Source: Moorella thermoacetica
GTDB taxonomy: Bacteria; Bacillota; DSM-521; Neomoorellales; Neomoorellaceae
DNA length: 64,000 nucleotides
Direction of reading: 5' to 3'
Assembly: GCF_001267405.1 (NCBI RefSeq)
Contig: NZ_CP012369.1
Location: 1,328,001 to 1,392,000 of the forward strand
The stretch's first letter is position 1, and every line of letters starts with the position of its first letter. The translations under genes and the position numbers were made by a program. The notes under the pieces are model-generated. The model was not told the DNA's origin. It was given only the letters and a program-made list of their open reading frames with translations, and did no database searches. Positions 1,264-40,653 of the stretch are shown piece after piece.

Positions 1264-2589
1264 TCAAATATCGGTTTCCGCATCAAATATTTCCGGGCGC
1301 GTCAGTTCGACCTTCAATTTCCGCAGGTAGCTACCATCCTGGCGTTTCTCCATTACGCTGGTCGAAATTCCCACCTCAATGTCGAGTCCCGCCAGCTCTT
1401 TAACCTTGCTGATATGAAATTCAAGGAAATGGTATTGCTTATTGAGGGTATACTGGTGGTAATTAATTTTCTTAAATACTTCCAGCACCCGGGGAATGTC
1501 GTCTCCAAATACCTTGGCCGATTTGTAGAAGTAATCCCGTGGTGAGAAATACAGGAAGGCATCTACTTTCTGCCCGTAGTTTTGCTGGTAAATCTGGCCG
1601 GTATTTTTATTTTCCAGGGAGCAATAGTGAATGCCCAGCTGCAACCCCTTCTCCAGGGCAAAGTCTATCAGCTCCAGGCAATCCAGCTCGCTCCCGGCTA
1701 CCGGCAGGCCCCCGCCGTACCAGTAATTGTAAAGCACCCGATAGGGTGGATTCTTGATTTTATACCCCCTTTCGTTATATATATCCACATTATTGAAAGG
1801 AAAGCAGAACTCCAGCAAATTTATGCCAAAAATGCCTAGGCGATCCAGTTCCAGTAATACTTCCTGCATAGGTTTCCTGGTACCGGGCAGGACGGGCATT
1901 TCCACCATCACCCGGGGAATATACTCCCTGGCTAAGGCAATATGCTCGTAGGTGCGCCGCCGCACCCCTTCCGGGTCATGCAGCCTGATGCTGAAGCGTA
2001 TCTCGTCCAGGCCAGTTCTTTGCAATTCCGCCAGCATCTCTTTGCCGGCCAGATCACCGGCCGTATAGAGGCGGGTATAAACGCCGGGAAATTTTTCTTT
2101 GGCGGCGCGGAAAAAAGCCAGGGTTTCTTCTGGATGAAGGAGAGGTTCGCCCCCCGTCAGAGCCACGTGTTTCATTTCCTGGCCGGTTCTTTGGAGATAC
2201 TCCAATTCTGCCAGGCAATCCCTCTGATTATGGGTGTAATACTCGTAGCCTTCCTGGTTCGGGTTAAAACAGAAAAAGCAGTGACGGTGGCACTGAAGGG
2301 AGATGAAAAAGGTCAGGCTCCCCACGCCCTTCTGGCAGGCCAGGCACGCCGGGGAAATACCGTTGATATACAGGCTCTTGGCGTCGTTGCGGACTACGAC
2401 GCCCTGCCGGCGCAAACCCTCTATTCGCTGCCGTGTCTCTTCCCGGTAATCCTCCCGGGCGACCGCTATGCCACTCCCCTGGATTTGCCGCATAAAATCC
2501 TCGTAGATCCTCGTGTACATCCCCGCGTACTTCGCCAGGTCGGGGTTTCTGATGCCCGCCAGCGTCTCCCTGCTGATCTCGATAAGCAC
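1264..2589 (-). CDS. Radical SAM protein inside the molybdoenzyme operon
   Basis: A 441-residue protein starting at GTG 2589 behind a GGGGG-type RBS. The radical SAM cluster motif CHRHCFFC (CxxxCxxC) lies near residue 104, preceded by an extra cysteine pair (CLACQKG). A glycine-rich SAM-binding motif follows (LTGGEPLLHP), then a TIM-barrel-like region and a C-terminal domain without an obvious SPASM cysteine cluster. It sits between the DmsB-like gene and the second catalytic subunit, spaced for cotranscription. Radical SAM proteins are not standard members of dms operons. A role in maturing the enzyme, its cofactor or a peptide is an inference from position only. Confidence 0.82.
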   Translation of the reverse strand: MLIEISRETLAGIRNPDLAKYAGMYTRIYEDFMRQIQGSGIAVAREDYREETRQRIEGLRRQGVVVRNDAKSLYINGISPACLACQKGVGSLTFFISLQCHRHCFFCFNPNQEGYEYYTHNQRDCLAELEYLQRTGQEMKHVALTGGEPLLHPEETLAFFRAAKEKFPGVYTRLYTAGDLAGKEMLAELQRTGLDEIRFSIRLHDPEGVRRRTYEHIALAREYIPRVMVEMPVLPGTRKPMQEVLLELDRLGIFGINLLEFCFPFNNVDIYNERGYKIKNPPYRVLYNYWYGGGLPVAGSELDCLELIDFALEKGLQLGIHYCSLENKNTGQIYQQNYGQKVDAFLYFSPRDYFYKSAKVFGDDIPRVLEVFKKINYHQYTLNKQYHFLEFHISKVKELAGLDIEVGISTSVMEKRQDGSYLRKLKVELTRPEIFDAETDI

Positions 2590-2648
2590 AGGCGTACCCC
2601 CTACTGATGGCTACCGGAACCCTGGGGTTGATAAAATTGCGGCCTAGC

Positions 2649-3197
2649 TTATTTCCTGGCCTCATCTGCCGGTTGAATGGTTATCGAGGGATGGGTTATG
2701 CTGGCGTCCGGCAGGCCCTTGACGTCCGCCGTGCCGCCGTATTTCCGGCGCAACTCCTCAATATCCCCGAAATCCAGGGCGCGCATCATGCAGGCGGCGA
2801 CGCAGGCTGGCTGCTCGCCTCTGTCGATTAAATCCGCGCAGAGGTTACATTTGCCCACCTTACCCTCGGAGGCGATATACTGCGGGGCACCGTAAGGGCA
2901 AGACCAGACGCAGTAGCGGCAACCGATGCATTTGTTCCGGTCCTGCATGACAATCCCGTCTTCCCTTTTATAGAGGGCGCCGGTAGGACAATTCCGGACA
3001 CAGGGTGCCTGGGCGCAGTGGTTACACCCCAGGGAGATGTGATAAAACCAGGGGTGTGGAAACTTGCCGCCCTCTACGGTATAGACCCGGCGAAAGAGCA
3101 CCCCCACCTCCAGGTTATTTTTATCTTTACAGGCTACCTGGCAGGTCTTACAGCCGATGCAGGCAGTCATGTCGTAGTAAAACCCCAGTTGAGCCAT
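2649..3197 (-). CDS. DmsB-like four-cluster ferredoxin subunit
   Basis: A 182-residue electron-transfer subunit with the NrfC/DmsB pattern of four cysteine groups: CIGCKTCQVAC near residue 13, CNHCAQAPCVRNCP, CIGCRYCVWSCP and CNLCADL...CVAAC. These should bind four 4Fe-4S clusters that pass electrons to or from the catalytic subunit encoded 12 nt upstream. There is no signal peptide of its own, as expected if it is co-exported with a Tat-carrying partner. No DmsC-type membrane anchor is seen in this window, so the quinone link is either downstream of the edge or absent. Confidence 0.92.
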   Translation of the reverse strand: MAQLGFYYDMTACIGCKTCQVACKDKNNLEVGVLFRRVYTVEGGKFPHPWFYHISLGCNHCAQAPCVRNCPTGALYKREDGIVMQDRNKCIGCRYCVWSCPYGAPQYIASEGKVGKCNLCADLIDRGEQPACVAACMMRALDFGDIEELRRKYGGTADVKGLPDASITHPSITIQPADEARK

Positions 3198-11825: not shown

Positions 11826-12000
11826 ACAAATGCGGCAGGCGCGCTTTGGCGTTCCTGCCGTCATCTTATTGGCCCTCGCATCCCGGCAGTCGACGATAGC
11901 CAGAGAAACGGAGACCAGGGGTAGCCACGTCCTCCGGCCTTCCCGGTCCTGGCTATAGAAGTTGATAATCATTGGCCTCCCCGCTACAGCTAGTATGCAG

Positions 12001-15294: not shown

Positions 15295-15487
15295 TTTGCC
15301 CACTCCTCCGGAAAGGTTGGCTGGCGGCGTCTGATAGTACAGCGACGTCGTTGTATGCATTCGCTGCCGATCCTGGAAGATCCTTGTCAAAAATTTGCTG
15401 CAAATAACGGTCGAAGAAAAAAACCATCTACCCGGCAGGAAACATACTGGTAAAAGGAGAATAGTTATTTATAAAAACCCAATAGTT

Positions 15488-15576
15488 ACCCCGGGGGTGC
15501 CCTTAGGGGCTGAGAAGTGCCGCAGCACTAACCCTTGGAACCTGATCTGGGTCATACCAGCGTAGGGAAGTGGGGA
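15488..15576 (+). ncRNA. TPP riboswitch (THI element)
   Basis: All conserved blocks are present: GGGGGTGCC, GGCTGAGA, ACCCTTGGAACCTGATCTGG, and the GGTCATACCAGCGTAGGGAA block with CCCC/GGGG closing the P1 stem. It precedes thiC and is followed by an intrinsic terminator, consistent with thiamine-pyrophosphate-dependent transcription termination. Confidence 0.97.
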
Positions 15577-15591
15577 CCGAAGTTGCCGGAG

Positions 15592-37483: not shown

Positions 37484-37505
37484 CCCCACCTGTAGGAAGG
37501 TGGGG
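37484..37505 (-). terminator. Leader terminator between riboswitch-like element and DUF364 operon
   Basis: The 8-bp stem CCCCACCT/AGGTGGGG with a 6-nt loop is followed on the minus strand by TTTTAGTTTT. It lies about 50 nt upstream of the first gene and 48 nt after the aptamer-like element, so it is the probable expression platform. Confidence 0.85.
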
Positions 37506-37552
37506 CTAATAAAAGCCATAAACAGCCACTAATCAGCCACCTCCTTATACTC

Positions 37553-37655
37553 AAACCTGGGAAGGCATACCAGTTTCCCGGTATACCCCGTGGGCCTCTC
37601 AGCCCAGGCCGGCCACCATAGATCGCTCCTTAGGTTAAACCGGCTCGGAGATGTC
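37553..37655 (-). ncRNA. Structured leader RNA, Moco/Tuco-riboswitch-like (copy 1)
   Basis: On the minus strand the element runs CTCCGAGCC, CCTAAGGAGC, TATGG, GGCCTGGG...CCCACGGGGT, then ATACCGGGAAACTGGTAT and GCCTTCCCAGG. The ACCGG-GAAA-CTGGT hairpin has a GAAA tetraloop, and CCTAAG...TATGG is a perfect match to the 11-nt GAAA-tetraloop receptor. The same blocks recur at 49010-49111 ahead of another DUF364 gene, with a terminator each time. The Moco/Tuco class is my best guess from memory of its tetraloop/receptor architecture; a different class is possible. Confidence 0.65.
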
Positions 37656-39534: not shown

Positions 39535-40272
39535 TTATTTCAACCCCTTTTTCGCCATGGTGAGCAACCTTGCGCCGCGCCCATGCAATTGCTTGAACAC
39601 CACGCCTTCAGAAACAAACTTCAGCACCACTTCCGGCTCCACCACCCGCGTCCCGGAAACCAGGTCCACCCCGTAGTCAAACCATAGAGGTGTAAGGGGC
39701 GTCGTCGGGCCAAGTACCATTACCAGGCTGTCTTTCCGGCACAGCTTAAGGAGGCTTTCCATACTACCGTTAATAAGGGCCGTGCCGGTTATGGCCACCA
39801 CGTCGGCCCCGGGAATGACATTCGCTGCTTCATCAGCCGGGAGATCGCCGCTTTGGGGCCTTCTTTCAAGCACCCAGAGTTCTCTTGCTACCCGCCGCAG
39901 TCCTGGAACGAAAGGAAAGTGCCCCACCACGGCAACCCGTTTTCCTGCCCCCCTTTCTATCAGTAATTCCCCGGCGTTAATATCTTGACATTGCTCCATA
40001 TCCACCTCTAACAAAGAATTGATCGCAGCAAGCCCTATAGAGGCTTCCAGAAGGCTTGTCGAGGTAGCATAGCGGCAAAGCTCGCGGGCGCTTTTACCTG
40101 TTAAAAAGCCCGCTTCGCCTACAGGAAAACGGTTTTCATGTTCGTGAGTAAAGGTTGTCGAGGCCAGGCCGCAGTAACGGCTCCACACCCCGGTCCAGAA
40201 AGGACCGATTCGTACTTCCTTCACAACCTCATCGCCGGATAGGCTGGCAATAATAGCTTCAATCAGGCTCAT
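39535..40272 (-). CDS. DUF4213/DUF364 protein (third paralogue)
   Basis: 245 residues. VKEVRIGPFWTGVWSRYCGLA and HENRFPVGEAGFL in the DUF4213 part. DUF364 motifs: RVAVVGHFPFVPGLRRVA near residue 112, ADVVAITGTALINGSMESLL near residue 155, LVMVLGPTTPLTPLWFDYG near residue 180 and GRGARLLTMAKKG at the end. No ABC transporter is adjacent and no riboswitch-like leader is visible upstream. Instead it follows a radical SAM fragment and an MBL-fold gene. Confidence 0.87.
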   Translation of the reverse strand: MSLIEAIIASLSGDEVVKEVRIGPFWTGVWSRYCGLASTTFTHEHENRFPVGEAGFLTGKSARELCRYATSTSLLEASIGLAAINSLLEVDMEQCQDINAGELLIERGAGKRVAVVGHFPFVPGLRRVARELWVLERRPQSGDLPADEAANVIPGADVVAITGTALINGSMESLLKLCRKDSLVMVLGPTTPLTPLWFDYGVDLVSGTRVVEPEVVLKFVSEGVVFKQLHGRGARLLTMAKKGLK

Positions 40273-40338: not shown

Positions 40339-40653
40339 TCAGCAATCGTTTGAGACTGGAGCCGGACCGTAACGCGGCATGGTAACCTGGTTGCCCCCGG
40401 CTACGGAAAGGCCCAGAATATCACTCTGCATTTCTACCAGCCGCTCTAAAACAGCGGTTCCCAGGAGGATGCCGTTGGTAGTGAAACCCACCCTGCGGCC
40501 CTGTTCTTTGGCCGCTTGCATCATGTCAAATAGCCGCGGGTGTAGCAGCGGTTCACCCCAGCCCTGGAAGTAGATCAAACCTACCTGGCGCAAATAAGGG
40601 GCGATATAACGCACAAAAAATTCCCACGGGAAGTCGGCGCCATTCTTGCTCAT
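40339..40653 (-). pseudogene. Radical SAM protein fragment
   Basis: 104 residues reading YFQGWGEPLLHPRLFDMM near residue 28, then GRRVGFTTNGILL and SDILGLSVAG. This is the beta-2 to beta-5 part of a radical SAM barrel with the GxGEP-type SAM motif. The N-terminal CxxxCxxC cluster motif is absent and the frame ends early, so it is truncated on both sides. Its first codon overlaps the MBL stop. A live short protein is unlikely. Confidence 0.7.

Follow-up and report, generated by a model that had tools for sequence, protein, structure and literature searches.

RNAs of the Moco/Tuco riboswitch class (RF01055) were described by Regulski et al. 2008 (PMC2408646), with terminator platforms reported for some members and with modABC or moa genes as targets; Moco RNAs of Moorella were already in that original set. 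In that description, P3-containing RNAs accompany MPT/Moco genes alone, the P3-lacking ones go with use of the tungsten cofactor, and deletion of P3 by the original authors abolished control and did not switch specificity (PMC2408646). The P3 rule for telling Moco from Tuco RNAs is therefore a correlation and not a proven determinant. The closest described transporter is HI1470-HI1472, the MolBC-A molybdate importer of Haemophilus influenzae, whose binding protein takes tungstate too; H. influenzae molB is itself subject to repression (PMC4031551). Structures have been solved for DUF364, an enzyme-like family of wide distribution whose Pfam label is just 'putative heavy-metal chelation'. From the surroundings of its genes, the 2010 paper on the DUF364 protein Dhaf4260 (PDB 3l5o) ties the family to rare-metal transport, with no riboswitch mentioned in the text covered (PMC2954201).

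Here, a stretch of 64,000 nt from Moorella thermoacetica (contig NZ_CP012369.1, positions 1,328,001 to 1,392,000; hereafter the window, in whose coordinates positions are given) was analyzed. The results indicate that a Moco-type attenuation riboswitch very probably controls a DUF364-MolBCA-type molybdenum-acquisition operon, with DUF364 as an accessory. What is new is the recurrent link between DUF364, a molybdate importer and the Moco riboswitch, the riboswitch class itself being known. No statement joining DUF364 to the Moco riboswitch was found in the part of the open literature that was covered, and prior notice of it is possible.

Identification of the aptamer in the operon leader

An earlier note, made from the sequence alone, had proposed a structured leader of the Moco/Tuco class and named an Rfam search as the check. 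The cmscan search of the whole window matched the complete RF01055 model (1-135) to positions 37662-37525 of the minus strand with 65.2 bits (gathering cut-off 36, E 2e-13), and the scan of the leader stretch gave a local E of 3.1e-15. Apart from an sRNA model that stayed far under its own cut-off, the leader gave no further RNA family at E <= 1; a different riboswitch class was ruled out, as RF01055 has no competing family there. The limits of the interval given previously, 37655-37484, were slightly off: the aptamer model spans 37662-37525, and the earlier interval has its lower end at the terminator stem's 3' end.

The individual elements of the class were located on the minus strand. Both halves of the previously claimed 11-nt tetraloop receptor were found in P2 (37634-37616) by sequence and pattern match, CCUAAG at 37634-37629 and UAUGG at 37620-37616, and the GAAA tetraloop, likewise predicted, lies at 37577-37574 on the 11-12 bp stem P4, as judged from sequence and fold; the leader thus holds the GNRA/receptor pair of RF01055. 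The covariance-model alignment placed the P3 stem, UGGGC-loop-GCCCA, at 37606-37591, and P3 is kept in all six MolBCA-type loci compared within the genus. The isolated aptamer folds with P1, in which 37653-37647 is paired to 37544-37538, and its fold is more stable than that of shuffled versions (z -2.16). The receptor motif was dropped as stand-alone evidence, since CCTAAG-N3..14-TATGG is expected 0.60 times per shuffled window and was present in 41 of 100 shuffles, which is chance level; the case for a riboswitch consequently rests on the full structural model. With P1-P5, the GAAA loop, the receptor and P3 all in place, the leader element is, by its match to the family model, a new instance of the known class RF01055.

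Predicted expression platform and promoter

The intrinsic terminator stem (37507-37482, minus strand; 10 bp, -17.4 kcal/mol) is followed by TTAGTTTTAG; the strong terminator described in the earlier note is this stem with the TTAGTTTT behind it. Folding of partial transcripts predicted an antiterminator hairpin, AAGGAGGUGGCUGAUUAG...AUUAGCCCCACCUUCCU, at 37546-37494 of the same strand (-20.0 to -20.6 kcal/mol). The 3' strand of P1 (37544-37538) is common to both structures in these folds: its partner in the bound form is 37653-37647, and in the transcript cut at 37494, ahead of a complete terminator, its partner is the terminator's 5' half (-20.0 kcal/mol). Terminator and antiterminator are thus coupled to the P1 strand, as in RF01055 members with such a platform. 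P1 and the antiterminator are mutually exclusive in the predicted folds, and therefore a transcriptional OFF switch is predicted.

With the cofactor in short supply, P1's 3' strand (AAGGAGGUGG...) would pair with the leading half of the terminator (CCACCUUCC...), the antiterminator would form, and RNA polymerase would read through into the DUF364-MolBCA-type operon, which would then be expressed. At an ample supply, the molybdenum (or tungsten) cofactor would bind the aptamer and lock P1, by which the terminator would be freed and the operon turned off. Cofactor binding and the OFF direction of regulation in vivo are inferred.

All six MolBCA-type loci examined in the genus (L051, L067, L073, L077, L079 and L080) showed this terminator/antiterminator layout, as did one locus each in two further genera of the same family (L085 and L089). 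In the consensus over eight loci, two-sided changes affected 4 of the 9 pairs of the terminator and 3 of the 12 pairs of the antiterminator; this covariation supports the platform without amounting to proof, the alignments being small and the consensus energy of the antiterminator weak. A related RNA in another genome (G018, L101) had no terminator found behind it, and a binding-protein ORF begins inside the matched stretch. The leader aptamer scores lowest of the four Moco RNAs of the genome, below all the other copies, as might be the case if it were a degenerate relic, with a constitutive terminator and a leader that no longer switches. This is highly improbable, since every element of the leader is intact, from the receptor and tetraloop through P3 and P1 to the antiterminator and terminator, and other species retain these elements with compensatory changes; a functional switch is the preferred reading.

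A promoter-proximal block, GGCAGGAGTTTT-N-ATGTTGAAT, was located at 37720-37693 of the minus strand and is conserved upstream of orthologous riboswitches. Its core, CAGGARTTTT-N9-GTNGAAT, has 11 copies in the genome when up to one mismatch is allowed, compared with 0 for the reversed pattern. In form the block is like the sigma-H promoters known from Bacillus (AGGAWTT, 11 nt, GNNGAAT), and this dispersed 11-copy motif is probably a sigma-H-type promoter. A sigma-70 promoter at 38046-38019 is possible, but it was not adopted as the main start because the block conserved among orthologs is the one at 37720-37693, beside the aptamer.

Genes of the operon and probable substrate of the importer

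The leader is followed by a seven-gene operon on the minus strand, whose genes overlap or lie no more than 82 nt apart. Its first gene (37431-36586) encodes a 281-aa DUF364/DUF4213 protein (Pfam 8.4e-42 and 1.2e-20; 142.7 bits against DUF364, PF04016, cut-off 23; PDB 3l5o 5.2e-52). It is followed by a MolB-type FecCD permease of 350 aa (36620-35568; Pfam FecCD 4.4e-88), for which the best PDB match was HI1471 (6.9e-81) and the next FhuB (5.8e-50), and by a MolC-type ATPase of 262 aa (35577-34789), for which HI1470 was the sole PDB match at E <= 1e-40 (5.2e-44). The fourth gene (34706-33597) encodes a MolA-like lipoprotein of the Peripla_BP_2 family (369 aa; Pfam 5.7e-34), closer to the uncharacterised PDB 4ovk (2.3e-43) than to MolA (HI1472, 2.7e-32). 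Further downstream are genes for an O-methyltransferase-like protein assigned by Pfam (360 aa, 33577-32495), a second DUF364/DUF4213 protein (309 aa, 32473-31544; Pfam 6e-45) and a second MolA-like binding protein (375 aa, 31517-30390; Pfam 2.4e-19; PDB 4pag 3.5e-53, HI1472 7.4e-20). In the PDB search, HI1472 was among the three best matches of both binding proteins, at rank two in one case and rank three in the other. A 2-hydroxyglutaryl-CoA dehydratase-like gene (29947-28637) was excluded from the operon, as it lies 442 nt past the last clear gene.

The downstream DUF364/ABC operon expected from the first reading of the sequence is therefore present, and that interpretation is largely supported. 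Among solved transporters, the permease and ATPase are nearest to the H. influenzae MolBC proteins, and the binding proteins belong to the same fold family as MolA. The operon differs from the H. influenzae system by the riboswitch at its head and by its additional genes, which encode DUF364, a second binding protein and a methyltransferase; unlike the described RF01055 targets, modABC or moa genes, the gene set under control is DUF364 with a MolBCA-type importer, in whose 5' leader the aptamer lies.

These comparisons suggest that the operon most likely encodes a MolBC-type importer for molybdate/tungstate or a chelate thereof. Systems for Fe-siderophores, haem and B12 predominate in the FecCD and Peripla_BP_2 families, and the transporter might accordingly carry iron, a siderophore or a corrinoid, and stand under a Moco switch only because it feeds an Fe- or cobalamin-dependent molybdoenzyme. 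We regard this as improbable. The permease and ATPase are far nearer to HI1471/HI1470 than to FhuB, HmuU or BtuC, the Moco riboswitch class otherwise controls molybdenum genes, and a gene for FmdE, named for a molybdenum enzyme operon, lies directly before DUF364 in both the M. thermoacetica genome compared and Peptococcaceae strain CEB3. With molybdate/tungstate import as the preferred assignment, the riboswitch gives regulatory ground to read the FecCD-type importers of this clade as molybdate, not iron, systems.

Probable ligand of the riboswitch and other Moco RNAs of the genome

The presence of the P3 stem and the family assignment make Moco the likelier ligand of the leader aptamer. Of the Moco RNAs of the genome, one precedes a modABC-like operon (L001/L048; by sequence), another (L050) precedes a run resembling moeA, moeA, moaA and moaC (assigned by eye), and the remaining two precede the MolBCA-type operon and a divergent DUF364 gene. 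It is conceivable, though unlikely, that the riboswitch senses chiefly the tungsten cofactor, or both cofactors equally, and that the operon is a tungsten-supply system. Moorella is known for a tungsten formate dehydrogenase, which would fit such a role. In the same direction, H. influenzae MolA binds both oxyanions (PMC4031551), and putative Tuco RNAs without P3 occur in M. thermoacetica (PMC2408646). Against this, P3 is present in the RNA of the window and in its orthologues, P3 RNAs having been found only with MPT/Moco genes (PMC2408646), and the other riboswitch targets of the genome are modABC-like and moe/moa-like genes; sensing of Moco is favored.

The second Moco/Tuco aptamer of the window, which also has P3, was found at 49117-48981 of the minus strand (74.3 bits, E 4.2e-16). 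Behind it, on the same strand, are the divergent DUF364 gene (48888-48160; 242 aa; Pfam 3.9e-08, 33.5 bits against a cut-off of 23) and a relic of modC (48135-48046), which comprises the last 30 residues and is 90% identical to the ModC of a relative (tblastn 1.2e-13). In relatives and sister species, the divergent DUF364 gene heads modA, modB and modC-type genes, assigned from sequence; for Desulfofundulus, Pfam was used to check the family type of the ModA and ModB counterparts. The relic shows that modABC was deleted behind the second riboswitch. Only this modC relic is left after the divergent DUF364 gene, and therefore the second switch would now drive a DUF364 gene that has lost its transporter. 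The terminator of the second riboswitch is weaker (-10.6 kcal/mol, compared with -19.0 kcal/mol in several relatives) and holds a mismatch absent from the relatives.

Elsewhere in the window, a TPP riboswitch (15483-15585, plus strand) and a cobalamin riboswitch (61271-61017, minus strand) were detected, both over their cut-offs. At L034 (6102-6186) of M. thermoacetica DSM 21394, a c-di-GMP-I riboswitch precedes an Hsp20-like gene, directly upstream of a Moco riboswitch.

Association of DUF364 genes with Moco riboswitches

A survey of 61 related genomes (about 156 Mb) yielded 50 genes of the DUF364 family, along with 115 Moco RNAs that scored above the cut-off. Comparison of coordinates revealed that 17 of the 50 genes follow a Moco RNA on the same strand at a distance of no more than about 2 kb, compared with about 0.04 such pairs expected from genome size; most of the 17 cases come from one genus and so are not independent. 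Cases outside the main genus were found in one genome of the same family (G013) and in one of the same order (G018). Moco RNAs also lie upstream of DUF364, several genes off, in Desulfofundulus thermobenzoicus (L035) and Peptococcaceae CEB3 (L041).

A further DUF364 gene of the window (39535-40272), upstream of the operon, had no Moco RNA detected before it. Close by, a short ORF at 40339-40653 appears by eye to be a radical SAM protein fragment, possibly a pseudogene.

Predicted role of DUF364

The first DUF364 protein of the operon matches Dhaf4260 over 239 residues (E 5e-52). Most residues of the interdomain pocket are retained, namely G37, N83, G129, H130, E148, T174 and T182, whereas D180 is replaced by Asn and the GXG/Arg42 loop is not kept. 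Because its operon encodes a MolBC-type importer under a Moco switch, DUF364 is most likely an accessory of molybdenum acquisition. Two separate DUF364 lineages occur in molybdate-importer operons, one with MolBCA-type and one with ModABC genes, under the same cofactor-sensing RNA, and therefore the role of the family is narrowed to molybdenum/tungsten supply in these bacteria.

A more specific and rather doubtful proposal is that DUF364, the methyltransferase and the FmdE or radical-SAM partners seen in relatives serve to synthesize or modify a small-molecule Mo chelator, pterin-like or of another kind. Such a molybdophore, or a Mo-pterin salvage substrate, would be imported by the MolBCA-type importer, and the whole would be repressed by Moco through the riboswitch.

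Two further arrangements were observed in relatives. L073 and L080 (genomes G008 and G009) encode a 602-aa fusion of a radical SAM and a MolA-like protein near Moco RNAs and the MolBCA-type operon. At L035 of Desulfofundulus thermobenzoicus, two divergent Moco RNAs lie about 380 nt apart (2486-3110), and a third precedes a tupA-like gene at 11865.
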